Shown here in pieces: positions 11,098 through 63,112 of a stretch of DNA of 64,000 nucleotides (positions are counted from its first letter, which is position 1; each line of letters begins with the position of its first letter). Under the pieces are notes generated by a model that did not search any database, was not told the DNA's origin, and worked only from the letters and a program-made list of their open reading frames with translations. The stretch is from Flintibacter sp. KGMB00164 (GTDB taxonomy: Bacteria; Bacillota; Clostridia; Oscillospirales; Oscillospiraceae). The position numbers and the translations under genes were made by a program. The DNA is taken from assembly GCF_008727735.1 (NCBI RefSeq), contig NZ_CP044227.1:186001-250000 (forward strand), written 5' to 3'.

Positions 11098-12498
11098 TTA
11101 ATAGCCGATGGCAGAGGCGATGAGCATAAAGATGGCGCCTACTACAAACCAAATGCCGAACAGGGGCAGCATGAACTTGAGCCACTTCTCATAGGGAATT
11201 TTGGCCGCGGACAGGTATCCCATGGTAGCCGAGGAGGTGGGCAGGATGGAATTGGAGAAACCGTCGCCCATCTGGAAAGCCAGCACGGCAGTTTGACGGC
11301 TCATGCCTACCAGGTCGGCAATGGGAGCCATAATGGGCATCACAACGACGGCCTGTCCGGAGCCGGAGGTGATCAGTACATTGATAAGATTCTGAACTAC
11401 GTACATGCCAAGCACCTGGACCGGACCGCTGAGGTTCATGACTACCTGAGACAAAGCATTGATAACGGTGTCAATAATCTGTCCATCGGCCATGACCAGA
11501 GAGATGCCGCGGGCAAAGCCTACGATCAGCGCACCGCCGGTGATGCCCTTGGCGCCCTGGCTGAAAACAGAGGCAATCTTGTTGGGGCCATAACCGGCAA
11601 TGAGGCCGCCTACCACGCCCATAACCAGGAAGATAGCAGTCATCTCTTCGTACCAGAAGTCCATCTGGCTTACGCCGTAGATCAGGGCGACAAAGGCAAC
11701 CAGGACGGTGAGGAGGATGAGAACATGCCGGGTGGTCATCTCAACGGTCTGGCTCTCCTCTTCATACTCATATTCGCTGCCCAATCCGTAGACGATGCTG
11801 CGAGTAGGATCGGCCTTTACCCGGTTGGCGTAGCGGATGATGTAGGCGCTGCTTACTGCAACCAGCACGACCAGCAGTGCAACACGAAGGCCCGCGCCGG
11901 AAAACAGGGGAACTTCTGCGATCTCCTGGGCCACACCTACGTTAAAGGAGTTGAGTACGCCGGCAGTAAATCCGCAAGCGGCACCCATAGCGATCATGGC
12001 AGTGCCGGTTACCCGGTCAAAGCCCATTGGGAGTACGACGGAAATACCGATTGGGACAAAGATGCACACCTCGGTGGACATGCCCATAGTGGTACCAAAG
12101 ATGGCGAAGAGCACCATAAAGAAAATAATGACCAGATTTTTTCGCTTCCCGCAAATCTGGGCCACTTTGCAGCTCAGGGCAGTGATGGCGCCGGTAGAGT
12201 GAATGATTTCAAAGGCGCCGCCGATCATCAGCAGGAAAATGACGATGTCGGCCGCATCTACCATGGACTGGTACATGATTCCCGGCACTCTCAGCAGACT
12301 GACTGGGGTCTGTTCCACCCGATGGTAGGAATCCGCTACCACAATGGTGTTGCCGGTGACAGGGTCTTCTGTTCTGTCAAATTCGCCTGCCGGAACCACA
12401 TAGGTGAGCAGCGCGGTAATACAGACCAGAATTACCATGATAACCAGTGCGTGAGGTGCGCGGAACCCTCTCTTTTTTGCTTTTGTTTCTGCTGCCAT
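11098..12498 (-). CDS. YfcC family permease (DcuC/AbgT-like carrier)
   Basis: This 466-residue membrane carrier has about 12 helices and starts with the basic, Lys-rich cytosolic stretch and LTYVVPAGEFDR typical of YfcC proteins. The repeated motif GMSTEVCIFVPIGISVVLP and the GFTAGVLNSFNVGVAQEIAEVP loop are characteristic. YfcC relatives are predicted to move amino acids, peptides or C4-dicarboxylates, and no substrate is established. It is the first gene of an operon with two peptidase-like enzymes, which argues for a peptide or N-acylated amino acid. A second YfcC gene lies at 47350-48840. Confidence 0.87.
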   Translation of the reverse strand: MAAETKAKKRGFRAPHALVIMVILVCITALLTYVVPAGEFDRTEDPVTGNTIVVADSYHRVEQTPVSLLRVPGIMYQSMVDAADIVIFLLMIGGAFEIIHSTGAITALSCKVAQICGKRKNLVIIFFMVLFAIFGTTMGMSTEVCIFVPIGISVVLPMGFDRVTGTAMIAMGAACGFTAGVLNSFNVGVAQEIAEVPLFSGAGLRVALLVVLVAVSSAYIIRYANRVKADPTRSIVYGLGSEYEYEEESQTVEMTTRHVLILLTVLVAFVALIYGVSQMDFWYEEMTAIFLVMGVVGGLIAGYGPNKIASVFSQGAKGITGGALIVGFARGISLVMADGQIIDTVINALSQVVMNLSGPVQVLGMYVVQNLINVLITSGSGQAVVVMPIMAPIADLVGMSRQTAVLAFQMGDGFSNSILPTSSATMGYLSAAKIPYEKWLKFMLPLFGIWFVVGAIFMLIASAIGY

Positions 12499-50583: not shown

Positions 50584-51921
50584 TTATGCTTTGGCGGGCT
50601 GCTCTTCCGTGCGGGTGATGCCCAGGGCAACCAATAAGGTTAAAACCTCGGCAAAAGGAACGGCAAGCCAGACACCGTTGAGTTCCAGCAGCTTGGGGAG
50701 CAACGTCAAAAACAGAAGCAGCAGGGCAAAGGAGCGCAGAAAAGTGATGATGCCGGACAGGTGTCCCTTTCCATAGGCCATAAAGCGGATGGCGCAGAAG
50801 ATGCTGATGCCCGAGAAGAGAAAGCCAAGTCCGTACAGCCGCATCCCGGAGACAGCCAGAGTGTAGACACTGCTTTGCGGCTGGGCAAAGAAGCTCACCC
50901 CCAGCGGAGCCAGAAAATAGGTCATGGCATATAAAACAAAGGGAGCAACCGTAAAGAAGCGCCGGGCATAGGACTCCAAAACCCGGCAGACATCCCGCTG
51001 CCCGTCACCGTAGGCGTAGCCAAGGGGCGGTGCGATACCCATGGAGAACCCAAAGTAGATGCCGATGACCAGAAATTGCAGATACATGATGATAGAGACC
51101 GCCGCAATGCCGTCCTCTCCGGCGAAGACCATGGCGGTGCGGTTAAATACCACCGTGGTAATGGCAATGGCCAGCTGATTGACACATTCTGAGACGCCAT
51201 TGACCATACAGCGGGAGGCCAGAGAGGACGTCAGACCGTGGGTAGTAAAGCGAAAGATTTTCTTCCGCGCGGCAAAATAGAATACGCCCATGCAGAAGGA
51301 AAGAAGCAGTCCCAGAATAGTTGCTGCGGCAGCACCCTGGATGCCCATGTCCAGCCGGGCCACCAGCAGATAGTCCAGCACAATGTTGCAGATCCCGCCG
51401 GCCAGCGCGGTCAGAAAGCTGTATGTAGGCGCCCCGTCCACCCGAATGAAATAGGTGAACAATTCCTTGCCGATGACCAGCGGAGCGCCCATCAACCACC
51501 AGATCGCGTAGGTTTGACAGTCTGCCATGGTGGCGGGGGTAGCCCCCAGCCAGTCCAGCACAGGAGACAGATTCAGTCCAAAAAGCAGGGAGATCCCGCA
51601 TCCCAGAAGAAGAGAACAAATAAGACTGACAGAAAAGGCACGGTTGGCCTCCTCCTCTCTCCTGGAGCCGATGAGCAGAGCGGCCACCGCACTGCCGCCG
51701 GTGGCAAAGATCAGGGCGATGCCGTACAGTACATTAACAATGGGGTATACGATGTTGATGGCAGCCAGCGCGTTGGTGCCAACATAGGAGGAGACAAAAA
51801 TGCCGTCCACAATGGTATATAATGTATTGAACAAGGAAGTCAGGTAGGTTGGGACGATAAAACGCAGAACCGCGCGAAACCGGACCTCACTTGCAGAAGA
51901 AAATATCAAGGTTTTTTCCAT
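50584..51921 (-). CDS. MATE family efflux protein
   Basis: This 445-residue, 12-helix multidrug and toxin exporter has the MATE openings VLRFIVPTYLTSLFNTLYTIVDGIFVSSYVG and NIVYPIVNVLYGIALIFATGGSAVAALLIG. Export is driven by a Na+ or H+ gradient. The start MEKTLIF has GGAGGG upstream. It is expressed from a MerR-type promoter with a 19-base spacer shared with the divergent MerR gene, so expression should be drug- or ligand-induced. A CAT-like acetyltransferase accompanies the MerR gene. Confidence 0.92.
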   Translation of the reverse strand: MEKTLIFSSASEVRFRAVLRFIVPTYLTSLFNTLYTIVDGIFVSSYVGTNALAAINIVYPIVNVLYGIALIFATGGSAVAALLIGSRREEEANRAFSVSLICSLLLGCGISLLFGLNLSPVLDWLGATPATMADCQTYAIWWLMGAPLVIGKELFTYFIRVDGAPTYSFLTALAGGICNIVLDYLLVARLDMGIQGAAAATILGLLLSFCMGVFYFAARKKIFRFTTHGLTSSLASRCMVNGVSECVNQLAIAITTVVFNRTAMVFAGEDGIAAVSIIMYLQFLVIGIYFGFSMGIAPPLGYAYGDGQRDVCRVLESYARRFFTVAPFVLYAMTYFLAPLGVSFFAQPQSSVYTLAVSGMRLYGLGFLFSGISIFCAIRFMAYGKGHLSGIITFLRSFALLLLFLTLLPKLLELNGVWLAVPFAEVLTLLVALGITRTEEQPAKA

Positions 51922-51940
51922 TCCAATCCCTCCGGATGTC

Positions 51941-51971
51941 ATTGTAAACCTTCAAGGCCCTTGAAGGTCAA
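51941..51971 (-). promoter_or_regulatory. MerR-type promoter and operator of the MATE gene
   Basis: On the minus strand TTGACC (51971-51966) and TACAAT (51946-51941) are separated by 19 bases, the long spacer that MerR activators correct by DNA twisting. A perfect palindrome fills the spacer, with ten-base arms ACCTTCAAGG and CCTTGAAGGT around one base (51948-51968). This is a textbook MerR-regulated promoter. Confidence 0.92.
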
Positions 51972-52014
51972 GCGGACATATGATACGATAACAACCACTG
52001 AGATAGGTGATGTT

Positions 52015-52824
52015 ATGGAAAAAACGTTTCAAATTGGAGAGATTGCCCGCTTTTTTGATCTGGCCCCATCCACGCTGCGGTATTGGGAAGAATGTGGGAT
52101 TTTAGCGCCGGACAAAAATAAGGAGAATCAGTACCGGACCTATTCCGTATCCGACCTGATGGCCATTTCCGATGCTGTGTTTTATAAGAGCCTGGGGCTC
52201 CCCCTCAAGCAGATTCGGGACATGGAACAAACAACGCCCGGTCAGCACAGGGAGTTGCTGGAGGAGAAAATGGGCGAACTGGTGGCATTGCAGGAGCAGG
52301 TGCGGCTGCGGATGGAAAAACTACGCTGCCATCTGGCGGCCATTGACGAGGTGGAGCGGTTAAGAACGCGGCCTTACGCCATTGAGGATATTGATACGGA
52401 ATGTATCGTCTCCTTTGACCTGATTGAGCAGGACAAGCTGCGCCAGTACATCGGAAATCCGTATCTCTATTCCCGGGTACAGCACTCCTGTTGTTTGCAG
52501 CAGGAGCACCGGGGACTGACGGTGCCGACAGAGCAGCTGGACCAGTTCCCGCCCGAGCAGATTTTGTGGCAGAATTGCGGCGGCACCTATGCCGCATGCC
52601 TGATGAGAGAAGAACATACCCAGCCCTACAAAAATAACCTGCAGCAGCAGCTTGCCCATATCCAGAAGTCGTACCGGACGGGAGCCATCATCAGCCGGTT
52701 TTTGCTGTGTGCCCGGGAAGATGGAGAGTTATATGACTTTTACAAGACCTTTGTGGAGGTCTTCCCCAAGGAATGGGACGGGCAGGCAGAGTCCCAATAC
52801 AGTATTTTTCTAAAGGAGAATTGA
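52015..52824 (+). CDS. MerR family regulator with C-terminal effector domain
   Basis: This 269-residue regulator has a MerR HTH and wing (FQIGEIARFFDLAPSTLRYWEE, then NQYRTYSVSDLMAISD), a coiled dimerisation helix (REL...LRMEKLRCHLAAIDEV) and a C-terminal domain of about 150 residues, the right size for a GyrI-like ligand domain. The start MEKTFQ is the first codon directly before the HTH. It diverges from the MATE gene and is two bases from the acetyltransferase gene. It probably activates the MATE promoter when a small toxic molecule binds. Confidence 0.92.
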   Translation: MEKTFQIGEIARFFDLAPSTLRYWEECGILAPDKNKENQYRTYSVSDLMAISDAVFYKSLGLPLKQIRDMEQTTPGQHRELLEEKMGELVALQEQVRLRMEKLRCHLAAIDEVERLRTRPYAIEDIDTECIVSFDLIEQDKLRQYIGNPYLYSRVQHSCCLQQEHRGLTVPTEQLDQFPPEQILWQNCGGTYAACLMREEHTQPYKNNLQQQLAHIQKSYRTGAIISRFLLCAREDGELYDFYKTFVEVFPKEWDGQAESQYSIFLKEN

Positions 52825-52826
52825 CC

Positions 52827-53507
52827 ATGGATTATCAAGAGATCGATCTGGAGACCTGGCCCCGCAAGGAGCACTATCTCCATTTCACCAAACAGGCAAA
52901 GTGCTTTGTGTCCATCACAAAGGACGTGGACGTCACCAAGCTTCGGGCTGCGGCAAAAACCTGCGGCAGAAGCTTTTACATTGCCTTTTTATATGTGATC
53001 TGCAAGGTAATCAACCGGCACAGCGAATTTAAGCTGGCCTATCTGCCTCAGGAGGAAAAGCTGGTGCAATGGGATGAGGTCCTCCCCTCCCATTTGGTCT
53101 TCCACGAAGAGAATGAGACCTTTACCTGCATCTGGTCCCGGTGGGAGCCGGACTTTGAAGCGTTCTACCGCGGGTGCCAGGAAGATATCGCGGCGGGCAA
53201 GGAGTACCGAGGCTACCGTGTGCCGGGGATGCCGGAGAATACATTCTGCGTCTCCTGCCTGCCGTGGATCAAGTATTCTGCCTTGGATATTAACCTCTGC
53301 GGGGACGGCCTGTTTTTGGCGCCCATGATCAGCTGGGGAAAAGCGGAGCTGGACGGCGGCCGCATGAGAATGCCCCTCTCCTTTGAAATCCATCATGGAG
53401 CGGCAGATGGCTTCCATATTGCCCGCTTTTATGACGAGGTGGAGCAGGAAGCAGTTGCGCTGGCGGAGTATTTGTCGGCCTTTGGCGGGAAGAGTGTCTG
53501 CTGCTGA
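52827..53507 (+). CDS. CatA-like acetyltransferase
   Basis: This 226-residue enzyme of the type A chloramphenicol acetyltransferase family has the N-terminal IDLETWPRKEHYLHF, the central SFYIAFLYVICKVINRHSEF and the catalytic HHGAADG (His189-His190, Asp194). It would transfer acetyl from acetyl-CoA to a hydroxyl group and work as a cytosolic trimer. It starts two bases after the MerR stop, a tight operon. Many family members in gut anaerobes are untested, so chloramphenicol resistance is possible but unproven. Alternatively it modifies the compound that MerR senses and the MATE pump exports. Confidence 0.88.
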   Translation: MDYQEIDLETWPRKEHYLHFTKQAKCFVSITKDVDVTKLRAAAKTCGRSFYIAFLYVICKVINRHSEFKLAYLPQEEKLVQWDEVLPSHLVFHEENETFTCIWSRWEPDFEAFYRGCQEDIAAGKEYRGYRVPGMPENTFCVSCLPWIKYSALDINLCGDGLFLAPMISWGKAELDGGRMRMPLSFEIHHGAADGFHIARFYDEVEQEAVALAEYLSAFGGKSVCC

Positions 53508-53538
53508 CAGCAGACGATATAGCGACCAAAAGAGAGAA

Positions 53539-53570
53539 AAGCGTACCGGAAAAGATGATCCGGTACGCTT
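53539..53570 (+). terminator. Terminator after the CAT-like gene
   Basis: Arms AAGCGTACCGGA (53539-53550) and TCCGGTACGCTT (53559-53570) pair perfectly over 12 bases, followed by a TTTT run on the plus strand. Confidence 0.88.
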
Positions 53571-53617
53571 TTTTCAAAATATAGCGTGTACTGAGGGGGA
53601 AAATGAGAAGACAGGGG

Positions 53618-54889
53618 TTAGCTGTTTTGGTTCATCTGCTCAAAGGCGGCGCACTTTAAACAGCAGCAAAACACATCCATGGCCTGCTGAAGTTCAGACA
53701 CAGAGGGATACGAGGGCGCAATGCGAATATTCTGATCCTTTGGGTCGATGCCATAGGGGAAGGTGGCCCCTGCGTTGGTCATGATCACGCCGGCCTGCCT
53801 GCAGAGCTGAATCGTGCGTTTAGCCAGTCCGGGAAGGGTGTTTACTGAGACAAAGTAGCCCCCTTTGGGGCGATTCCAGGTGGCCAGTCCCAAGGGTGCG
53901 ATTTCCTTCTCCAGGGTGCTTGTTACCACATCAAACCGTTGCTTTAAAATCTCGGCATGCTGCTTCATGAGGTCTAAAACATGGGGCTTGTCTTTCAGAT
54001 ACCGAACATGCCGCAGCTGATTAACCTTATCATAGCTGATGACCTGGACATCCAGCAGTCGGAGCATATACTCCATATTTGCCTGGCTGCAGGCAAAGCA
54101 TGCCACACCAGCACCCGGGATGGTAATTTTGGAGGTGGAAGCATATTCAAATACCATGTCCGGATTTCCGTTTTGTGCGCAGAGACTTATGATATCGGCA
54201 AAGGGGAGGAATTCCCCCTCAAACTCATGTACGCAATAAGCGTTGTCCCACATCAGCAGAAAATCCGGAGCGGCAGGTTTCATAGCGGCCAGGCGCTGGA
54301 CGGTTTGGGCAGAATAGACGATTCCATCCGGATTGGAGTATTTCGGAACGTTCCACATTCCTTTCACACACGGATCCTGAATCAGCTGGTCCACCACATC
54401 CATGTCGGGGCCTTCCGGCGTCATAGGTACGGTAATCAGTTCAAATCCGAAAGACTCTGTGATCTTAAAATGCCGGTCATAGCCGGGAGCGGGACAGAGC
54501 CATTTGAGCCCCTTTTGTTGACTCCAGGGCCGTTCGCTGTGCAGCAGACCGTGGGTCATGGCCTTTGCAATGGTATCATACATCAGGGTCAGACTGGAGT
54601 TACCGCCCACGAATACCTGTTCAGGAAGACAGCCAAGCAGCTCTGCGAAGAGACTTCTTGCGCTGGATAAGCCGGCAATCTCGCCATAGTTCCGGGCGTC
54701 GATGCCGTCGTCAAAGCACTCTGCGGGGTCAGTCAATGCGGTGAGAAGGCCGGAAACCAAGTCCAGCTGCTGCCGGCCGGGTTTACCCCGCGCCATGTTC
54801 AGCTTGAGCCCTTGGTTCATCCAATCCTGATACTCTGCCTGGGCTAAGCTGCATTGGGTCAGGACATCACTGGAACAGACTGTATGCAT
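53618..54889 (-). CDS. Type Ic aspartate aminotransferase-like enzyme
   Basis: This 423-residue PLP enzyme belongs to the Asp_aminotransf (subgroup Ic) family, distinct from classical AspC. Visible landmarks are LNMARGKPGRQQLDL, GNSSLTLMYDTIAKAM, WNVPKYSNPDGIVYS, DNAYCVHEF and the Schiff-base lysine in EYASTSKITIPGAG. It would transfer an amino group between aspartate or glutamate and a keto acid. It lies at the end of the OPT-DUF917-racemase gene run, 91 bases after the racemase, with GAGGTG before the ATG. That position suggests it handles the amino acid released by that pathway. Confidence 0.9.
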   Translation of the reverse strand: MHTVCSSDVLTQCSLAQAEYQDWMNQGLKLNMARGKPGRQQLDLVSGLLTALTDPAECFDDGIDARNYGEIAGLSSARSLFAELLGCLPEQVFVGGNSSLTLMYDTIAKAMTHGLLHSERPWSQQKGLKWLCPAPGYDRHFKITESFGFELITVPMTPEGPDMDVVDQLIQDPCVKGMWNVPKYSNPDGIVYSAQTVQRLAAMKPAAPDFLLMWDNAYCVHEFEGEFLPFADIISLCAQNGNPDMVFEYASTSKITIPGAGVACFACSQANMEYMLRLLDVQVISYDKVNQLRHVRYLKDKPHVLDLMKQHAEILKQRFDVVTSTLEKEIAPLGLATWNRPKGGYFVSVNTLPGLAKRTIQLCRQAGVIMTNAGATFPYGIDPKDQNIRIAPSYPSVSELQQAMDVFCCCLKCAAFEQMNQNS

Positions 54890-54980
54890 ATCAACACCTC
54901 ATATTCTCAGACATTGCTCATAACAGTGAGTATAACACCGAAGGAATATTCTGTTTTTCAAAGGGCTGGACCAATATAGT

Positions 54981-55649
54981 TCATTCGGTTCGAGCGTCTT
55001 TTCGAATCAGTTCGAAGAGGGTCATCAGACCCTCGCACATTACAGGGTCCAGCACGGGAAGGCCGGTTTCTCGTTCCAGGGCCGGAGCAATTTGAATGCT
55101 GGACATCCCGGTACAGCTTAGAGCGATGACGTCTGCGCCCAGCTGCTTTTGCCGCTGTGCCTGCTCCACGGTGGCGGAATACCCCTGGGGCGTCATCAGG
55201 TCGAGGACGCTCTCGACGCCCTTGCCGCGGGCGTTATCTACAATATGATCGCCAAAGACTCGCCGATAACCGGCCGGAACATCCTCGGTGATTCCCAGCA
55301 CAGCGGGGTGGCTGCCATAGAACATGCATAGGGCAGCAGTACTCTCCCCAGCCCCGATGACCGGGATGGGAACTGCCTGGCGCGCTTGTGCAACTCCGGG
55401 GTCTCCGGCACAGCTGACAATGATCGCGTCAAAGCCCTCTTGCCACATTTCTTTTGCCATAGCCACCACCTTGGGAACGCCTAAGGCCATAGACTGGTCG
55501 TCGTGGATTCCCTCCGGCTGGTCTGGGATACAACGGGATTCGACCTGCAGCATGGGGAAATACTGTTCGATCAGCGCCCCGTGCATCTGCATCAGCTGGG
55601 TGTCATCTGTGGTCAATACGCGGATCAGGCCAACTCTGTATTTCTTCAT
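54981..55649 (-). CDS. Asp/Glu/hydantoin racemase family protein
   Basis: This 222-residue protein has the two-cysteine racemase fold. The first catalytic cysteine is in AIIVSCAGDPGV and the second in VIALSCTGMSSI, with the VIGAGESTAALCM loop between. Family members racemise aspartate, glutamate or hydantoins, or act as decarboxylases. A hydantoin-type role fits the DUF917 neighbour. GGGGAG lies six bases before the ATG. It is 17 bases after the unrecognised Cys-rich gene, in the same operon. Confidence 0.85.
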   Translation of the reverse strand: MKKYRVGLIRVLTTDDTQLMQMHGALIEQYFPMLQVESRCIPDQPEGIHDDQSMALGVPKVVAMAKEMWQEGFDAIIVSCAGDPGVAQARQAVPIPVIGAGESTAALCMFYGSHPAVLGITEDVPAGYRRVFGDHIVDNARGKGVESVLDLMTPQGYSATVEQAQRQKQLGADVIALSCTGMSSIQIAPALERETGLPVLDPVMCEGLMTLFELIRKDARTE

Positions 55650-55666
55650 ATCATACTCCCCTGCCT

Positions 55667-56524
55667 TTATGACATTTTAATGGAATGAAAAATAGTCTGC
55701 TTGTTGGCGTATGCGCAGGAGCGGTGCTGGCTGCAGCCGGAACAGGGATAGGTACATTCCGCTAAGCTGTCTGCATCCACAGGCGGCTGGGACGGAAGGG
55801 CTTTGATCTGTTCTACCAGGTGGAGGACTTTTTCCACTTCTTCCTGCTCCCCTTCAATCTGAATCGCTACGGAGGCTTCTGCACCGGAAAATCCACCTTT
55901 GGCAAAAACCAAAGCGTTTACACGGGCATAGGACTCAATGGCCTGGGACTCGGTCAGAACTTCTCCCGGTATGGGGGCAAGGCTGCAGGCCATGCCATAG
56001 GAAAAATTACACTTTTTTCTGGAAATCTGCGGGCTCAACCGGGTCAGATCCCCTGGGATGAGCTTCATCACACTGGTCAGAATCAAGGTGCGGATCCCTT
56101 CCGTATAGAGGAAGGGCATGCAGGTCCCATAGCCGCCCCCACCGGAGCTGCCGATCAGCAGTGCGGCATGGCCAAACGCATCCAGTGCGTTTGCTCCGGT
56201 TACAAACAGATCATCAGGTCCCATTGCTTGCAGGGTTTGCTCCAGACAGGAATCAACATTTCGGATTTCTCCCCGCTCATAGAGCAGAAAATGGGCGCCC
56301 TGGCTCTCAGCGTAGGATCGTTTCATCCCGTTTTTTGTAATTCGTCCGCAGATACGCATAGGGGTGTCAGCCAACAGCGCAGTCAGACAGGAGACAGTGG
56401 AGGAGCCTTTGAACAGGATTTTTCCCTGGGAGAGGTAGGGGGCGAACAGACTGCTGTCCAGGATGCAGCGGGCAATCAGCCATTGGCATTGCGTGCCCCA
56501 GAGGGTGAACTGTGCGACCGCCAT
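55667..56524 (-). CDS. Unrecognised protein with C-terminal cysteine cluster
   Basis: I do not recognise this 285-residue protein. It is soluble, with no signal peptide, and alternates hydrophobic strands with loops, including a glycine-rich GSSGGGGYGT segment and TLILTSVMKLIPGDLT. The C-terminus carries four cysteines spaced C-x3-C-x2-C-x5-C (CTYPCSGCSQHRSC), able to bind an Fe-S cluster or zinc, plus a second loose set (KKCNFSYGMAC). The ATG at 56524 is chosen over an upstream TTG because GAGGAGG is spaced six bases from it. It lies tightly between the M29-like and racemase genes, so it is probably a working part of that pathway. Confidence 0.8.
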   Translation of the reverse strand: MAVAQFTLWGTQCQWLIARCILDSSLFAPYLSQGKILFKGSSTVSCLTALLADTPMRICGRITKNGMKRSYAESQGAHFLLYERGEIRNVDSCLEQTLQAMGPDDLFVTGANALDAFGHAALLIGSSGGGGYGTCMPFLYTEGIRTLILTSVMKLIPGDLTRLSPQISRKKCNFSYGMACSLAPIPGEVLTESQAIESYARVNALVFAKGGFSGAEASVAIQIEGEQEEVEKVLHLVEQIKALPSQPPVDADSLAECTYPCSGCSQHRSCAYANKQTIFHSIKMS

Positions 56525-56537
56525 GGACAACCTCCTC

Positions 56538-57479
56538 TCAGATCTGGAAAGCTCCGTCCTTCAGAACCAGGACATCATCCAGGTAGAGCGTAGGATTTTT
56601 GATGATTCCGTCGATGTGGCAGTCCGCTTTATTTGTCCCGCCAAATCCGATGTTGGTTCCAAAGGCAATGTGCACGGTCTGATAGGCCTTCTCATCCTCC
56701 AGAATCACGCCGGTCAGTCTGGCGGCGTAGTTGGTGCCGATGCCCAGCTCACACAGGGTGGCATTGCGCTCATTGTTCAGCAGGAAGCCCACCTTTTCAG
56801 CCTCGGCGCCCTGGATGCTCTGCAGTTTTCCGTCCTTGACCTGCACCTGAAGGGGGGACTCCAGCAGACCGATGCCCACCATGGAGCCGTCAATGATCAT
56901 AGAACCGTTGGAGCCGCTTTCCAGAGGGGCGATGTAGGCCTCGCCGGAGGGAAGATTTCCGGCCTGGCCCTTTTCCCGGTACACGCCGGGGCTGGGAATG
57001 CCGGGGCGGCCGGCCAGATCCAGAGTCAGTACATGGCCGTCTTTTTCGATGCGGGCGGTAGAGGCCTGGGTCAGCATCTCAGTGACCCGGTTGGTCAGCT
57101 CCATTACGGTATCGTAATCCGCGGTCATAGCGCCCTGACGGAACATATCCTCCGTGATATTGGGCATGGTGGCGATCCGCGCCCCGGCCTTTGCCGCTTC
57201 GATCTTGGCGCGGGTATGGGTGATGGAGGTGCTCATGGGGCACAAAACCACATCGGCGGCCTTCATGGCAGCGGCAATGGAGGCGGGAGGCTCCTGCCCG
57301 GATACCTCGCGGGGGGACATGGTTACCAGCATGGCGTCCGCGCCCAGTTCCTTAGCTGCTTGATACAGTGCCTGGCCGATCTGAAACTTTTCGTCGTCCG
57401 TCACCACCAGTACCGTCTCCCCCGCTTTTACATCCATGCAGGAAGTCAGTACACGGGTTCCGATTTCTACCAGATTCAT
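56538..57479 (-). CDS. M29/NicX-like metalloenzyme (aminopeptidase-type)
   Basis: This 313-residue protein is related to M29 aminopeptidases (AmpS/PepS) and NicX-type dioxygenases. Expected metal ligands are visible in the C-terminal third: CELGIGTNYAARLTG (Glu), ILEDEKAYQTVHIAFG (Glu, His) and KADCHIDGII (His-x-Asp). It is shorter than the 400-residue M29 peptidases, mostly in the N-terminal part, so peptidase activity is uncertain. The start MNLVEI has GAGG upstream. It sits between AroM and the unrecognised gene, and the set may split an amide bond of the imported compound. Confidence 0.82.
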   Translation of the reverse strand: MNLVEIGTRVLTSCMDVKAGETVLVVTDDEKFQIGQALYQAAKELGADAMLVTMSPREVSGQEPPASIAAAMKAADVVLCPMSTSITHTRAKIEAAKAGARIATMPNITEDMFRQGAMTADYDTVMELTNRVTEMLTQASTARIEKDGHVLTLDLAGRPGIPSPGVYREKGQAGNLPSGEAYIAPLESGSNGSMIIDGSMVGIGLLESPLQVQVKDGKLQSIQGAEAEKVGFLLNNERNATLCELGIGTNYAARLTGVILEDEKAYQTVHIAFGTNIGFGGTNKADCHIDGIIKNPTLYLDDVLVLKDGAFQI

Positions 57480-57493
57480 AATATACCTCGCTT

Positions 57494-58165
57494 TCAAGAT
57501 AACAGTTCCATCAAAACTCGGGTGGCCAGGGTGCGGGACAAAATGACTGGCTTTCCCGAGATTTCATGGAACTTGGCTTTCATTTCCGCACTGTATCCAA
57601 TGCAGTCCATCACCACCAGGTCTACGTCCATTTCCGCTGCCTGGCGGGCTGCCCGGTCCAGCTCCTCGGGGCTTCCGTAGGGAGAGGCGGGAATCACGGT
57701 GACTTGGGAAACATATTCCTTCCATTTGCTCTCCGATTGGGCCACCTGCTGGGGCGTGGGAGTGACGACGGCGATCCTGCTCCGGCTGGCCAGAGCGGGA
57801 ACCAGGCCGTTGAGGACCTTGCAGGGGAAAATCAGAGGCACCTTGGAGTGAAATACGGCAGGAAAATCTCCAGTGCAGAGGAACAGAATTATTTCTACAC
57901 CCTGCTGCTCCAGCTGGTCAATGCAATTTTGCAGTCTGGGGAGAATATAACGCTCGGCAAAGACGGCGGAGCTTCCGTCCCGCAGGCGGGAGATCAATAC
58001 ATAGTCGTCTGGGCCGGGCTGAAAGGCTTCGATCTCCTCCCGGGTCAGCCCATCCAAACCGCCGGCCTGGAGAAGCTCCACCTGGTCCCCCAGCAGGGGG
58101 AGAATGTCCTGGGTCACGTCGGTTCTGGGAGATTGGCCGATGGTGATAGCGCCCACTTTGATCAT
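57494..58165 (-). CDS. aroM: AroM family protein
   Basis: This 223-residue protein matches AroM, which has a racemase-like fold of unknown activity. The opening VGAITIGQSPRTDVTQDILP is diagnostic. Cysteines in IILFLCTGDFP and VVMDCIGYSA occupy the two racemase catalytic positions. The ATG follows AAGGAGGG by a rather long 12-base spacer. It precedes the M29-like gene by 14 bases. With the hydantoin-racemase-like gene, the operon carries two members of this superfamily, hinting at handling of both enantiomers of a chiral intermediate. Confidence 0.87.
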   Translation of the reverse strand: MIKVGAITIGQSPRTDVTQDILPLLGDQVELLQAGGLDGLTREEIEAFQPGPDDYVLISRLRDGSSAVFAERYILPRLQNCIDQLEQQGVEIILFLCTGDFPAVFHSKVPLIFPCKVLNGLVPALASRSRIAVVTPTPQQVAQSESKWKEYVSQVTVIPASPYGSPEELDRAARQAAEMDVDLVVMDCIGYSAEMKAKFHEISGKPVILSRTLATRVLMELLS

Positions 58166-58193
58166 AATAGTAGAAGACCCTCCTTGTTGCAAA

Positions 58194-58222
58194 ATGCGGC
58201 CCTGGATGGACCAGGGCCGCAT
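58194..58222 (-). terminator. Intra-operon hairpin between DUF1177 and aroM
   Basis: Arms ATGCGGCCCTGG (58194-58205) and CCAGGGCCGCAT (58211-58222) pair perfectly around a 5-base loop. On the minus strand TTTTGCAA follows. It may attenuate transcription of the distal genes. Confidence 0.65.
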
Positions 58223-58227
58223 AGCTG

Positions 58228-59166
58228 TTATTGTTTGCCGAAGCCCTGGAAGTGACTCATATCGCCATAGAGCGCCTGAATGCGGGCAAACTCCTCCTTG
58301 TCGTAGAAGGACAGCTCACCGCGGCCAAAGGCTTTGGCGGCCTCCAGCATAAAGCGGGCGGCTTCCTCGATGTCGGCAAAGTGGCTGGCGCCGGTGGCGC
58401 AACCGGGCACCGGGGTCTGGGTGGCAATGGCCACGCCTACCACCGGGGCTTTGGTGGCGGTGGCGGGCTGCAGGATGCTGTTGAGGTGGTACAGGTCGTT
58501 GCCATAGGGGGTGATATCCTGCTGGGAGAGGGGGAAGACATGGGCGGGCTTGCCCAGGGTGATCTCCATGAGGTCCACCAGGTCGCTGCTGACCTTCAGA
58601 ATGTAGCCCTGCATGACGGTGGGAGAGATGGAGAAGTCCCGGGTGTTGATGATCTTATTGCCCTTGGTGGTGTCCACAGAGAGGATGGCGTCCAGCTCGT
58701 CGGTGACCTCCTCCCGGTTGACCTGAGCCATCTCCACCGGGGAGTCCATGAAGGGAACGGGGGTGTGAGGACGGGTGGGGGCGTTGGGGCAGACGTGGGT
58801 GGAGATGAACACATCTCCCTCCAGATGGTCGCCCTTTACCTTCATGTCCAACAGCTTGGCAGCCACCGACAGAGCGCACAGAGCGCCGTCGCCGTCGGAG
58901 ACAAAGCCGATGCGCTCAGGACGGGCGCCCAGGCCGCCCAGACGGCCCAGCAGGCCGATGGTGGGGGCGCTGCCGCCGGAGGACTTGCCCCGAGTGCCGG
59001 GGATGCGCACCTTCACCATGTCGGTTTTTCCCTTGGGACCCTGGAGGGCGTAGACCTCAATATTGGCCTGGGGATCGATGGCGCGCAGGTACTGCTCCAC
59101 GGCTGTGCCGGAGGCGGAGGGAGAATCGAGAATGTCGATGAGTTCAATTACTTGCTTGATAAGCAT
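58228..59166 (-). CDS. DUF1177 family protein
   Basis: This 312-residue protein matches DUF1177, whose function is not established. It is soluble, with conserved stretches KTDMVKVRIPGTRGKSSGG, SVDTTKGNKIINTRDFSISP and LHRHPHTPVPFMDSP-like histidine-bearing text around residue 130 (STHVCPNAPTRPHTPVPF). Cys and His there could form a metal site. It is next to DUF917 and AroM genes, a grouping often seen beside OPT transporters. AGGAGG precedes the ATG. A role in turnover of the imported compound is inferred from context only. Confidence 0.85.
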   Translation of the reverse strand: MLIKQVIELIDILDSPSASGTAVEQYLRAIDPQANIEVYALQGPKGKTDMVKVRIPGTRGKSSGGSAPTIGLLGRLGGLGARPERIGFVSDGDGALCALSVAAKLLDMKVKGDHLEGDVFISTHVCPNAPTRPHTPVPFMDSPVEMAQVNREEVTDELDAILSVDTTKGNKIINTRDFSISPTVMQGYILKVSSDLVDLMEITLGKPAHVFPLSQQDITPYGNDLYHLNSILQPATATKAPVVGVAIATQTPVPGCATGASHFADIEEAARFMLEAAKAFGRGELSFYDKEEFARIQALYGDMSHFQGFGKQ

Positions 59167-59189
59167 GGGAAAAACCTCCTGTCAATGAA

Positions 59190-60275
59190 TTAAAAGTCAA
59201 CGTGAGCCAGCATGGGACGGTGGATGATGCCCTCCACCTCGGCCAGCAGTTCCTTGTCAAACATGGGGGCGGACAGTTTCAGGTTGCGATAGCTGGTGCG
59301 GATGAGATAGATCTCCTGCCCCGGCGCCAGATCGGAAGTGGGGGTGGGACGTCCGGTCTGGGCGTCAAAGGTCATGATGAGATCGGGGAAGGTGCCCATT
59401 CGCTCTCCGTCGGGGCCGTCTACTGTCATATACTCGTTCCAGAAGGACATCTCATAGCCGCACACCTTTACGGTGCCCACGTCAAAGCCGCCCTCGCTGC
59501 GCAGCTGATAGTCCTCTACGGTGCCGCGGGTGAGTACCTGGCCGCCTAAAAAGTCGGCCACAGCATGTACGGCGTAGTCCACGGAACGCTCCAGGCCCTG
59601 CGCATAGCACCGGCCTGTTTCAATGGCGTGGGAAAGTCCGCCCAGAGCGCTGTTTTCCCGCAGAAACTGGGCGGATACCGGGTTGCGCACCACGGCGACC
59701 AGACCGCCCGCCTCCACGGCGGAAGCCCGTACCAGCTTGGAACAGTGGGTGATGGAGCCAGTGACGGTGCACTCCACATGGCGGCCCAGCTCCTCCCGGC
59801 CGCCCACGCAGGTCATGGTGGTGACATAGCTGGGGTCCCGGTGAAGGTTCAGGCTGCCCATAACTCCGGTGGGGTGCGCCCGTCCGTTGCAGGGGGCATC
59901 CAGTAAGGGGATGCCCAACACGGAGGCCTGGAGCCAGCCGTTAAAGGTGGAACCGCCGCCGTTTTCGTTGGTGACAATGCCGCCCGGCTTCAGACCGGTT
60001 TTTTGTGTGAACAGCTCCACGCAGCGCAGCAGGTCTACGGGACTGACATACTTCTCCTTGGCAGCCGGGGCACCTACCATAGAGGCAGTGACAATGATGG
60101 CGTCGGGGTCTACCGCGTCAATGGGGGTCAAGTGCAGGTCGCTGAACTCAACGGCCAGGTTGCCGGTCTGCGCGCCGGTGTCCGCCGAGCCGCCTCCGCC
60201 GCCGCCCAGGATGGAACCTCCTAGGGCAGCCCAGCTTACCGACTGGGCAGTGAGACGGGTGGAGTTTGTTTGCAT
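59190..60275 (-). CDS. DUF917 family protein (S-methyl thiohydantoin desulfurase-like)
   Basis: This 361-residue protein belongs to DUF917, a family now linked to thiohydantoin desulfuration and distantly to hydantoinases. The N-terminus has WAALGGSILGGGGGGSADTG, the hallmark Gly-rich opening. VTASMVGAPAAKEKYVSP and NGRAHPTGVMGSL with conserved histidine follow. The start MQTNSTRL has AAGGAAG upstream, and the longer frame runs into the OPT gene region. It is second in the operon, right after the OPT importer, so it probably acts first on the incoming molecule. The exact substrate is unknown. Confidence 0.87.
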   Translation of the reverse strand: MQTNSTRLTAQSVSWAALGGSILGGGGGGSADTGAQTGNLAVEFSDLHLTPIDAVDPDAIIVTASMVGAPAAKEKYVSPVDLLRCVELFTQKTGLKPGGIVTNENGGGSTFNGWLQASVLGIPLLDAPCNGRAHPTGVMGSLNLHRDPSYVTTMTCVGGREELGRHVECTVTGSITHCSKLVRASAVEAGGLVAVVRNPVSAQFLRENSALGGLSHAIETGRCYAQGLERSVDYAVHAVADFLGGQVLTRGTVEDYQLRSEGGFDVGTVKVCGYEMSFWNEYMTVDGPDGERMGTFPDLIMTFDAQTGRPTPTSDLAPGQEIYLIRTSYRNLKLSAPMFDKELLAEVEGIIHRPMLAHVDF

Positions 60276-60309
60276 GGTTACCGCTTCCTTTCCAAGATCA
60301 TAAAACCTG

Positions 60310-61890
60310 TTACATGAGCATAGAACGGATGAGATTGCTGAAGAAGCCGTACAGGCCGTCGCCGGCAATCAGACCGGAGTCACGCACTTCCATAAATTCG
60401 GTGCCGAAGATGAGACGCACTACCACAGCCAGCAGCACGCCGATACCGTAGATGGGGTTATTCAGCAGCAGGCCGGTGGCAAAGAGGACGCCCACCATCT
60501 TGGTGCCGAAGATGATCTGGATGATGGCGCCGGGGATGGCCCACAGCAGCAGCTCCTGCAGCAGGCTGGGGTTCGCGCCGGCCTGAGCGGCAGCGGCGAA
60601 GGTATAGCTGATGGGAGGCATAATGTCCTGGGAGAGATACATGTTGGCGAACATCAGCACCACCAGGATGCCGATGATGCCGCCCAGCATCTCTACCTTT
60701 ACCTGCTCCTTACGGCCCTGGATCTCACGGGCGGGATCGGCACCCTTGCCGCGGAGAATCCAGCCGGTCTTCAGGTCATAGCCCATGTCGGCAAAGCAGG
60801 GGCCCACGGAGCTGACATAGCCGGTGAGAATGGCAACAGGCAGAGCGGGGAAGCCCATGAGAATACCCAGAGTCATGAAAATGGTGGTGATGGCAAAGGC
60901 GGGGAACCAGCCCGAGTGCATGGCGGCCATGCCTACCAGCACCATGGCCACGGCGGAGGAGAAGCCGGCCCACAGCACCCACAGCACGGACATGCCCAGA
61001 GGCATCTGGGTGAAAATGCCGGTCAGCGCACCGACAATGGCGGCGCCGCCCACAAACAGGCCCAGAGCCAAAGCGAGACTCTTCTTGGCAGAGTCCTGGG
61101 AGACAGTGATCTCCATCTTCTGGGCAGAAGCGCTCTTGTGGCCGCGGAGCACAGTGATGATAGACTGGACCAGGGCCACCATGCCCGCACCGATCATGAC
61201 GCCGGAGGGGATGTTGGAAGCACCCATGTTAAAGCCGAAGAGCTGCTCGGAGTAGCCGCGGAGGATCAGGCCGATGCCCAGACCGGTCATGGCAATGATA
61301 TCGGCAATAAATACGATGCCGATACCGGCCACCGGCAGCTTGAAGTAGCTGCCCACAACGCCGACCACCAGGCCCTCCAGCAGACGGCGGCCCTTTTTGC
61401 CACCCTCGTCGCCGGCCTGAATGGCGGTAGCGGTAGCCACTCCGGGAGGCCAGGCGCCCTGGGCGGGGAAGATGGCAGAGTCATAGATGCGGCCGATGAT
61501 GTAGATAGAGACCGAGGTGCCGATCATACATCCGATGCCCATCATCAGAATGGAGGAGGCCTCCCCCATCAGGAAAAGCATGGCCACAGCGATAAAGCCG
61601 CAGTTGGCCGCAGAGAATCCAGCTGCCGAAGCAATGGTCTGAAGCAAGTTCTGGCGCTCCAGATTGCAGTATTTCAGACAGGCATTCAGGGGGATGCGGG
61701 CCACCAGCATGGCTACGATGGCTCCCAGCAGGGATGTGTTTGGTGTCGTTCCCAATTTGCCGATGATGTTCATACATACGGCGCCTACCAAAAAGGCGAT
61801 GAGAATTCCGGGGATCAAGGTTCCGGGCTCAAAAGCCGAGATGTAGGTCTCTTGTTTGTACTGCTTCTTGCGTTCTTCCTTTGTTTGCAT
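60310..61890 (-). CDS. OPT/YSL family oligopeptide transporter
   Basis: This is a 526-residue membrane protein with about 13-15 helices. OPT landmarks are TLIPGILIAFLVGAVCMNII, the KYCNLERQNLLQTIASAAGFSAAN stretch, GAWPPGVATATAIQAGD (the conserved P-P-G loop) and GASNIPSGVMIGAGMVALVQ. Such carriers import oligopeptides, metal chelates or modified peptides with protons. The start MQTKEERKK has GAGGAGGG six bases upstream. It is the first gene after the IclR gene, and its leader holds two IclR-type candidate sites. It defines the input of the DUF917-racemase pathway. Confidence 0.9.
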   Translation of the reverse strand: MQTKEERKKQYKQETYISAFEPGTLIPGILIAFLVGAVCMNIIGKLGTTPNTSLLGAIVAMLVARIPLNACLKYCNLERQNLLQTIASAAGFSAANCGFIAVAMLFLMGEASSILMMGIGCMIGTSVSIYIIGRIYDSAIFPAQGAWPPGVATATAIQAGDEGGKKGRRLLEGLVVGVVGSYFKLPVAGIGIVFIADIIAMTGLGIGLILRGYSEQLFGFNMGASNIPSGVMIGAGMVALVQSIITVLRGHKSASAQKMEITVSQDSAKKSLALALGLFVGGAAIVGALTGIFTQMPLGMSVLWVLWAGFSSAVAMVLVGMAAMHSGWFPAFAITTIFMTLGILMGFPALPVAILTGYVSSVGPCFADMGYDLKTGWILRGKGADPAREIQGRKEQVKVEMLGGIIGILVVLMFANMYLSQDIMPPISYTFAAAAQAGANPSLLQELLLWAIPGAIIQIIFGTKMVGVLFATGLLLNNPIYGIGVLLAVVVRLIFGTEFMEVRDSGLIAGDGLYGFFSNLIRSMLM

Positions 61891-61966
61891 TGTGGTCCCT
61901 CCTCGGTAATATGCTTCTATCCTCCATCCCTCTTTTTGTGAGGGAATGAACGAACACAGGAAATGG

Positions 61967-61983
61967 TTTCCGATATCCGGAAA
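61967..61983. promoter_or_regulatory. Candidate IclR operator 1 upstream of the OPT gene
   Basis: TTTCCGATATCCGGAAA has six-base inverted arms (TTTCCG/CGGAAA). It lies 77 bases before the OPT start and matches 14 of 17 bases of the site at 62039-62055. Confidence 0.55.
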
Positions 61984-62038
61984 ACACAGGGAGCAAAATA
62001 AGGCGCAACGCGCCATAGATTTCAATAATAAGAAAATA

Positions 62039-62055
62039 TTTTCTATATGCGGAAA
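62039..62055. promoter_or_regulatory. Candidate IclR operator 2 upstream of the OPT gene
   Basis: TTTTCTATATGCGGAAA repeats the site at 61967-61983 with three changes. It overlaps the perfect palindrome AGAAAATATTTTCT (62031-62044). Confidence 0.5.
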
Positions 62056-62094
62056 AATAAAAGGAAAACAAAGCGGGCGTATGCCCGTTTTGCT

Positions 62095-62853
62095 TTATTC
62101 CATACTTGGAAAGGCACCCATAGCCAGATTGATTTGTTCCGCTACCTCTCCAAACTTGCGCACCAGAGTCTGCTTGCTCTGGTCGGTGAGTTCGGAGATA
62201 TAGCCGCCTGTGCTGATGGCCCCCACGAGATTTCGGCTGCGGTCAAACAAGGGGAAACCCAATCCGAAACGGCCAGGGGTAAGGGTCCCCTCACTGAAGT
62301 CATAGCCGCAAGCGGCGATCTCCTCCAACTTGGCTTCCAGTGCTTGACGTGCAGAGCCGTGCATGGATAACCCGTCCATATAGCGCTGCTGCTCATGAGG
62401 CGGCAAAAAGGCCAGCAGCACACGGTTCGAGGCACCTTTGTGCATGGGATAGATCCCGCCGGAACGCACAGAGTTGGAAGTATCCCGGATGGAACCAATT
62501 TTTTCAATGCAAATACTGCGTCCGGCACAGGGAATCGTCAGAATACAGTGTTCGCCGGTGCGCTCGTAGTAGTCCCACATGTAGTACTGGGCGATCCGCT
62601 TGACTTCCCGGTTATCCAGGCTTTGTGCCCCGATGAGAAGCGCCTTGTCACCCAGAAAATACCGCTTTCCTCCCGGCTCCTGCTGCAAAAAACCAGAAGC
62701 AGTAAGGGTATATAAAAGCCGGTAGACCACGGTGGTGCTCATATTGCATTGTCGGGCCACTTCACTCAATGTAAGCCCGGGAAATAAGCCGATCAGTTCC
62801 AGAATTTCCAAGGATCGACCCACAGTCTGCAGATAACTGCTGTTTTCCCCCAT
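62095..62853 (-). CDS. IclR family regulator of the OPT/DUF917 operon
   Basis: This 252-residue regulator has the IclR HTH (LQTVGRSLEILELIGLFPGL, TLSEVARQCNMSTTVVYRLLYTLTASGFL) and the C-terminal ligand domain (KGASNRVLLAFLPPHEQQRYMDG, GISTGGYISEL-type end read as VGAISTGGYISEL). It stands first on the same strand as the OPT operon, about 200 bases upstream. Related ATAT-centred inverted repeats lie in its own promoter and in that gap. It may repress or activate the operon in response to the imported compound or a breakdown product. Confidence 0.9.
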   Translation of the reverse strand: MGENSSYLQTVGRSLEILELIGLFPGLTLSEVARQCNMSTTVVYRLLYTLTASGFLQQEPGGKRYFLGDKALLIGAQSLDNREVKRIAQYYMWDYYERTGEHCILTIPCAGRSICIEKIGSIRDTSNSVRSGGIYPMHKGASNRVLLAFLPPHEQQRYMDGLSMHGSARQALEAKLEEIAACGYDFSEGTLTPGRFGLGFPLFDRSRNLVGAISTGGYISELTDQSKQTLVRKFGEVAEQINLAMGAFPSME

Positions 62854-62888
62854 TCTAAAATCATCGCTTTCCTATTTTAGAAAATTAT

Positions 62889-62905
62889 TTATCTATATCG
62901 GATAA
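62889..62905. promoter_or_regulatory. Candidate IclR operator upstream of iclR
   Basis: TTATCTATATCGGATAA is an inverted repeat centred on ATAT, 36 bases before the iclR start. It shares 11 of 17 positions with the site at 61967-61983, pointing to autoregulation. Confidence 0.45.
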
Positions 62906-63112
62906 ATTTACTATATCGAAGATTGGAACAGGTGTCAATCGCAATCTGCATATTTAAACAGAGAAAATTGAATGATTCAATTTGGCAAAAATGCTGAGCG
63001 TTCTGCGCGTTTACAGGATCGGACACCAGTAAATCTGCTTTAATTTGAGGTGGAAAGAATGTAGTCCAGCGGCAGCATGATTGCCATGGTTTATGCCAGA
63101 ATTGAAAAATGG

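Follow-up and report, generated by a model that had tools for sequence, protein, structure and literature searches.

A conserved DUF1177, AroM and DUF917 gene module in Flintibacter sp. KGMB00164 and its possible role in the catabolism of small peptide-type compounds

The closest described relatives of the locus presented here are clusters of cyclodipeptide oxidase (CDO) genes without a cyclodipeptide synthase (CDPS) which, according to the available sections of PMC11055893, are enriched in hydantoin racemase (PF01177), DUF917, AroM, OPT and oligopeptide ABC transporters and also hold peptidases, with hydantoin-like substrates suggested for them. We analysed a 64,000-nucleotide stretch of the Flintibacter sp. 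KGMB00164 genome (contig NZ_CP044227.1, positions 186,001 to 250,000; "the window", whose numbering is used below) and in it a run of nine minus-strand genes at 53618–62853, which encode an IclR regulator, an OPT importer, DUF917, DUF1177, AroM, an M29-like enzyme, an unassigned Cys-rich protein labelled CysR here, an Asp/Glu racemase (Rac) and a type Ic aspartate aminotransferase. PF01177, DUF917, AroM, OPT and peptidases are common to this locus and to the CDO-like clusters as those sections present them, and the association is partly in print already, since DUF917, AroM, PF01177 and OPT have been reported near CDO genes (PMC11055893). The locus differs from those clusters in that the window's genome is without CDOB, and in that its core is DUF1177 plus AroM with M29 and CysR; DUF1177, M29 and CysR are not named for the CDO-like clusters in the available sections of that paper. 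We tentatively read the set as a mobile catabolic operon that may serve the uptake and hydrolysis of peptidase-resistant small peptide-type compounds, with cyclic dipeptides (2,5-diketopiperazines) or similar hydantoin-type rings as the likeliest candidates.

Diketopiperazines, as reported in the accessible text of PMC3852281, resisted the peptidases tested and were degraded by three strains that had been selected because they hydrolyse cyclic amides of other kinds. Among the matches listed in open-licence literature for DUF1177/PF06675, PF07302, PF06032 and dipeptidase/OPT/racemase, none describes a module of this kind; the same literature yielded no paper joining thiohydantoin, desulfurase and ergothioneine, and nothing relevant on DUF1177. 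Within the literature searched, the CDO-free module, its DUF1177 plus AroM core, the CysR family and the fold assignment of DUF1177 thus appear to be new.

The evidence that these genes belong together comes from a sample of 398 genomes of the phylum and 60 relatives, 37 of them from the window's genus (G000 denotes the window's genome, a single 2.92 Mb contig, C1; G426 a same-genus relative; L-numbers are locus labels). Of the 398 phylum genomes, 46 carry DUF1177, 45 AroM and 37 both (Fisher p 1e-35). We then compared 48 neighbourhoods, made up of those from 45 other DUF1177-bearing phylum genomes, two genus relatives and the window itself, using simple open reading frame (ORF) picks as gene calls and profiles that were seeded with the window's proteins and built from matches in these same neighbourhoods; 12 of the 45 stretches were shorter than 13 kb, and loci L084–L132, found through CysR, were left out of the frequency counts. 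At or near the DUF1177 locus of the 45, the partners were AroM (27), Rac (25), DUF917 (19), M29 (18), OPT (15) and CysR (8), and OPT, DUF917, DUF1177, AroM, Rac and M29 all occurred together in 14, six of which held CysR too. Three of the 60 relatives have DUF1177, the window's genome plus a further two from the 37 of its genus, which makes the module an accessory set in this genus. One of these relatives (L080) keeps the window's order DUF1177-AroM-M29-CysR-Rac until its contig ends, and the other (L079) has the same families rearranged, with two DUF917 genes, IclR and OPT. Over 66 distinct loci, pairwise distances of the module proteins correlate (rho 0.26 to 0.77); for 19 of 21 pairs no permutation out of 500 reached the observed value, and for the remaining two pairs 1 and 4 permutations did, a measure that does not separate joint transfer from common descent.

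OPT through Rac is a real conserved module. An earlier note on this DNA had proposed the genes as a unit and had named rare co-occurrence as the outcome that would refute it; the survey was run and did not refute the proposal, the six-family set being conserved in other DUF1177 neighbourhoods. The gene identities, shared strand and positions it had stated also hold, with family scores above their cut-offs. Its transamination step by the aminotransferase is not supported: that gene occurs in one of the 48 neighbourhoods, the window itself, and full-length homologues are present in 36 of the 60 relatives, of which only G000 and G426 have DUF1177, with G426 carrying its aminotransferase on contig C21 and its module on C8. 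The aminotransferase was therefore rejected as part of the pathway; it is a downstream neighbour outside the conserved module, and as a general neighbour it may use aspartate released at the end.

Both the N- and C-terminal S-Me-THD domains are present in the window's DUF917 protein (Table 1), and it shares full-length homology (residues 7–351) with thiohydantoin desulfurases; it nevertheless lies below the curated cut-offs of both models, with 272.9 bits for thiohydantoin desulfurase NF058529 (cut-off 440) and 253 bits for S-methyl thiohydantoin desulfurase NF058532 (cut-off 450), and its operon is without ergothioneine-type partner genes. Module-type DUF917 proteins score alike with the desulfurase models (window 273, L084 267 and 276, L105 304 bits), and three DUF917s from other settings reach 67, 91 and 119 bits at best. 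Membership of the module DUF917 in the thiohydantoin-desulfurase side of its family, in line with the link to thiohydantoin chemistry drawn earlier, is supported at 273 bits though under the cut-off of 440, with desulfurase activity putative. A scheme that always needs DUF917 was not borne out, given the neighbourhoods and two plasmid versions without it that are described below. In a same-genus relative (L079/L084), the module contains two different DUF917 genes, 36% and 52% identical to the window's.

DUF1177 and the M29-like protein are the candidate peptidases of the set. The predicted model of DUF1177 (mean predicted local distance difference test score, pLDDT, 83.5, with two stretches under 50) matched Vibrio aminopeptidase 3b35 in Foldseek (E 2.6e-8; template modelling (TM) score 0.53/0.56), and its fold matches comprised M28-, M17- and M20-type aminopeptidases and deacylases, such that a Zn-exopeptidase-type fold (M28/M20/M17) is predicted; searching PDB sequences with the DUF1177 profile returned nothing credible. 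In the M29-like protein, Glu180, Glu244, His270, His288 and Asp290 are invariant in 14 of 14 sequences and align with the M29 aminopeptidases AmpT, AmpS and PepS, at positions that we take to be metal ligands in those enzymes, although the window protein is shorter (313 amino acids as against 408–418 for the solved chains). With the M29-like profile, the best-scoring solved relative was the dioxygenase NicX (65.7 bits) ahead of PepS (47.2 bits). NicX-type dioxygenases have a mononuclear iron site without the M29 glutamates, and we rejected such an identity because the M29-like protein retains Glu180 and Glu244, at whose positions NicX has other residues.

The presence of two enzymes of the Asp/Glu-racemase fold, as proposed earlier, is supported in that each keeps two invariant cysteines: Cys97 and Cys188 in all 16 aligned AroM sequences, and Cys80 and Cys179 in all 13 aligned Rac sequences. 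Two conserved cysteines are catalytic in the two-cysteine type of the Asp/Glu racemase superfamily. The Rac family profile is very close (328 bits) to structure 2eq5, presumably from Pyrococcus horikoshii, which is named a hydantoin racemase, an activity known from its annotation only. The window's AroM meets the PRK10481 cut-off (217 vs 198 bits), in likeness to E. coli AroM, whereas in E. coli aroM sits with aroL, going by a reference title in PMC11055893, and not in an operon of this kind.

CysR gave no Pfam match up to E 10, no NCBIfam match, and nothing credible against PDB sequences either as a single sequence or as a profile. Its predicted model (pLDDT 93.1) finds ribose-1,5-bisphosphate isomerase and ribose-5-phosphate isomerase RpiA as best fold matches (E 4e-4, but TM 0.2–0.35), and that CysR may be distantly NagB/RpiA-type in fold is our own reading of the model and not a result. 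An alignment scan of public genomes revealed 49 CysR loci in Bacillota, Desulfobacterota-type, Synergistota-type, Chloroflexota, Spirochaetota-type, Armatimonadota and other records, of which 20 hold DUF1177 and 23 AroM by gene picks. Elsewhere CysR stands beside hydantoinase B, isochorismatase-type amidases, amidohydrolases, MmgE/PrpD and flavin reductases, so its role is not confined to DUF1177, and a theme common to its settings is probably the catabolism of amides or cyclic amides. Five loci with CysR at about 10 kb (L103, L109, L114, L123 and L131) show a recurrent catabolic-type cluster in which an amidohydrolase is joined by an isochorismatase-type amidase, an old-yellow-enzyme-type reductase and other genes. 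Three others (L096, L098 and L106) combine several DUF917, M29-like and racemase paralogues with CysR and have no DUF1177 or AroM match.

Turning to regulation, the gap between IclR and OPT holds two 17-base palindrome-like sites, TTTCCGATATCCGGAAA (61967–61983) and TTTTCTATATGCGGAAA (62039–62055), which are the sole exact matches in the 2.92 Mb genome to the pattern TTTYCNATATNCGGAAA, a pattern written after the sites had been seen, from the window's two and the one of G426. That an IclR regulator with matching candidate sites heads the set was thereby borne out, both exact matches lying before OPT, and we infer that IclR may bind them. A match with one mismatch at C1:254483 was set aside as a third regulator-like site because it lies inside an ORF. 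In G426 the single exact match is upstream of its OPT gene. IclR also heads OPT in Desulfosporosinus loci L105 and L128 and in plasmids of Klebsiella and Sodalis; for the pattern, L105 has weaker matches only, and none are listed for L128. Instead of IclR or besides it, 24 of the 48 neighbourhoods have a cluster of proteins of 500–580 amino acids, whose single scanned member is a PucR-type regulator.

Variant loci offer clues to the substrate, with importer and M20 identities resting on one or two members scanned per cluster, and with five of seven plasmid records carrying DUF1177 examined. OPT gives way to a dipeptide ABC type in other loci, SBP_bac_5/oligo_HPY importer genes being present in 11 of the 48 neighbourhoods; M20 peptidases form two clusters, each represented in seven neighbourhoods. 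A Paenibacillus plasmid combines IclR, a dipeptide-type ABC importer and an ArgE/DapE deacylase with DUF1177 and AroM, and a Planococcus plasmid has DUF917 with hydantoinase genes nearby. The haloarchaeon Salinigranum carries an ABC importer, DUF917, DUF1177, AroM, an M29-type aminopeptidase, a nitroreductase-family ORF, a racemase and an AstE/AspA-type enzyme; this ORF (L146, Salinigranum rubrum, 11539–12396, between the M29-type gene and the racemase) is missing from the listed gene table. CDOB (PF19585, the cyclodipeptide oxidase small subunit) was found in three of the 48 DUF1177 genomes; in two of them it lies, together with a nitroreductase-type CDOA partner, at a distance of 1–8 kb from DUF1177. 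Taken together, the variant partners agree on peptides, and some of them on rings. Cultured carriers are Desulfosporosinus metallidurans, Acetomicrobium hydrogeniformans and, with a partial set, Moorella mulderi; the genome of the archaeon Haloferax volcanii, used as a control, matches DUF917, DUF1177 and AroM.

If the operon is catabolic, OPT would import the compound and DUF917 would act on its ring, by ring hydrolysis or by sulfur loss from a thio form; Rac and AroM, as a racemase-fold pair, would adjust stereochemistry, and DUF1177 and the M29-like enzyme would cleave the linear dipeptide, or an N-acyl amino acid, by hydrolysis, with CysR possibly contributing an isomerase-, transferase- or hydrolase-type step. 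IclR would repress the operon through the sites before OPT until substrate arrives. Of the uptake, ring-opening, racemisation and transamination scheme put forward in the earlier note, the importer and the peptidase-like partners fit peptide-type uptake and hydrolysis, and the aminotransferase step falls away.

Several observations weigh against this catabolic reading of cyclic peptides. We infer, and do not observe, the substrate, the ring opening, the order of reactions, the stereochemistry and the repression. DUF917 is absent from 26 of the 45 DUF1177 neighbourhoods (with the short stretches among the 45 noted above), and its nearest named enzymes act on thiohydantoins, which have a five-membered ring. 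Two recombinant D-hydantoinases cut none of nine diketopiperazines (PMC3852281, in its accessible text); they belong to another enzyme family than DUF917, and their failure means that a different ring-opening enzyme is wanted, for which DUF917 is a candidate and not more. For DUF1177, hhalign against six M20 peptidases aligned a 31-column stretch at 1% probability, giving the predicted fold no sequence support, and for CysR the TM scores are low and the four matches at E <= 0.001 include one aminotransferase. No match to CDOB (PF19585) was obtained in the window's genome. Finally, 14 of the 45 DUF1177 neighbourhoods hold none of the six partner families on the same strand, so that DUF1177 occurs in other settings too.

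In the main rival reading, the module acts on a linear dipeptide with unusual stereochemistry or linkage (D-Asp, iso-Asp or other D- or beta-linked) from aged protein or cell wall, with the importer, DUF1177, AroM, racemase and a dipeptidase as the core and DUF917 as an add-on for a cyclised form, e.g., a succinimide; we regard this as possible, though somewhat doubtful. It draws on the Klebsiella and Sodalis plasmids, whose version IclR-OPT-DUF1177-AroM-PepE-racemase is without DUF917 and whose PepE, an aspartyl dipeptidase, meets its curated cut-off (327.3 vs 156 bits), as well as on the AstE/AspA-type enzyme of Salinigranum and the aspartate aminotransferase that ends the window's gene run. 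Against this, PepE is present in only two of the loci searched, both enterobacterial, while DUF917 is found in 19 of 45 neighbourhoods (among them the 14 six-family loci, which contain it by definition), its distances follow those of DUF1177 (rho 0.70) and CysR (rho 0.77), and two loci with cyclodipeptide-oxidase genes suggest rings. In the Klebsiella pneumoniae plasmid (L144, NZ_CP057460.1, 174946–180353; conjugative by PLSDB type), the DUF917-free module lies between insertion-sequence genes, and a megablast of its DUF1177 gene in E. coli genomes returned no match.

A free (thio)hydantoin amino-acid derivative, e.g., an ergothioneine breakdown product as suggested earlier, is an unlikely substrate. 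The four module DUF917 proteins at 267–304 bits with the desulfurase model, as against 54–102 bits for three DUF917s from other settings, and the closeness of Rac to 2eq5 (328 bits, a hydantoin racemase by annotation) would fit it, but the curated cut-off of 440 is missed, the operon has no ergothionase- or urocanase-type gene, and a free hydantoin would call for neither a peptide-type importer nor peptidases, of which there are up to three. We rejected the idea that the module requires an ergothioneine-degrading setting, as nine of 18 chosen DUF1177 genomes are without a urocanase homologue and eight without an aromatic-lyase homologue; in G000 the homologues of both lie at 2.50–2.51 Mb, far from the operon. 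Less probable still is a non-catabolic role in making or recycling a signal or metabolite derived from a peptide: the available sections of PMC11055893 leave it possible that CDO-like clusters make secondary metabolites, but the nine genes include no adenylating, ligase, tRNA-dependent synthase or exporter gene, and the identified enzymes are hydrolase- or isomerase-like and stand behind an importer. That the genes are accidental neighbours without a shared pathway, as variable gene order among loci and the 14 of 45 DUF1177 genes without partners might suggest, is extremely improbable given the genome- and neighbourhood-level association and the spread to plasmids of distant hosts, and is refuted for OPT, DUF917, DUF1177, AroM, Rac and M29, while it still stands for the aminotransferase.

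The layout of the gene run is collected in Table 1. With start codons picked by ribosome-binding sequences, the gaps are 204 bases from IclR to OPT, 34 to DUF917, 23 to DUF1177, 62 to AroM, 14 to M29, 13 to CysR, 17 to Rac and 91 to the aminotransferase. Rfam and tRNA scans of the window gave no match. Beside the operon lie a chloramphenicol-acetyltransferase-family gene (52812–53507, plus strand; PF00302, 189.5 bits), a MerR-type regulator (51961–52824, plus strand) and a MATE-family transporter (50584–51942, minus strand).

Table 1. Features of the gene run, with positions in the window.
Feature	Position	Strand	Basis
Promoter-like site TTGACA-17-TATAGT, upstream of IclR	62910–62938	-	11/12 consensus positions; consensus match only
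IclR-family regulator, 252 amino acids	62095–62853	-	IclR_C 66.8 bits (cut-off 24), HTH_IclR 43.8 bits
Terminator-like hairpin 3' of IclR	62074–62087	-	Consensus match only
Candidate regulator site 1	62039–62055	-	Pattern match
Candidate regulator site 2, near-perfect palindrome	61967–61983	-	Pattern match
OPT-family importer, 526 amino acids	60310–61890	-	PF03169 55.6 bits (cut-off 25.8)
DUF917 / S-Me-THD-like enzyme, 361 amino acids	59190–60275	-	S-Me-THD N/C 72.7/82.7 bits (cut-offs 27/27)
DUF1177 (PF06675), 312 amino acids	58228–59166	-	444.9 bits (cut-off 25); predicted Zn-exopeptidase-type fold
AroM (PF07302), 223 amino acids, Asp/Glu-racemase-like	57494–58165	-	273.7 bits (cut-off 23.8)
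M29-like metallo-hydrolase, 313 amino acids	56538–57479	-	Peptidase_M29 29.7 bits (cut-off 27), C-terminal part only
CysR, 285 amino acids, C-terminal C-x6-C-x2-H-x2-C	55667–56524	-	New family, without Pfam/NCBIfam match
Asp/Glu racemase family enzyme Rac, 222 amino acids	54981–55649	-	Asp_Glu_race 89.3 bits (cut-off 31)
Type Ic aspartate aminotransferase, 423 amino acids	53618–54889	-	AAT type Ic 588.7 bits (cut-off 435)
Terminator-like hairpin 3' of aminotransferase, end of gene run	53537–53572	-	Consensus match only

A bolder version of the cyclic-dipeptide reading, which we consider rather unlikely, is that the module represents an undescribed, horizontally spread cyclic-dipeptide pathway of anaerobes and some archaea, in which DUF917 would open the diketopiperazine ring without ATP, DUF1177 would be a new metallo-exopeptidase family for odd dipeptides, AroM and Rac would act as dipeptide or carbamoyl-amino-acid epimerases, and CysR would represent a new enzyme family of NagB fold, common to the module and to hydantoinase- and amidohydrolase-type catabolic clusters. 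With the module in view, four unexplained families (DUF1177, AroM, module-type DUF917 and CysR) become parts of one testable pathway, with cultured bacteria as carriers and, in Haloferax volcanii, a model archaeon with matches to three of the families. If the substrate is a ring-form dipeptide, the module would supply a degradation route for a class of compounds whose breakdown the accessible text of PMC3852281 calls little known.

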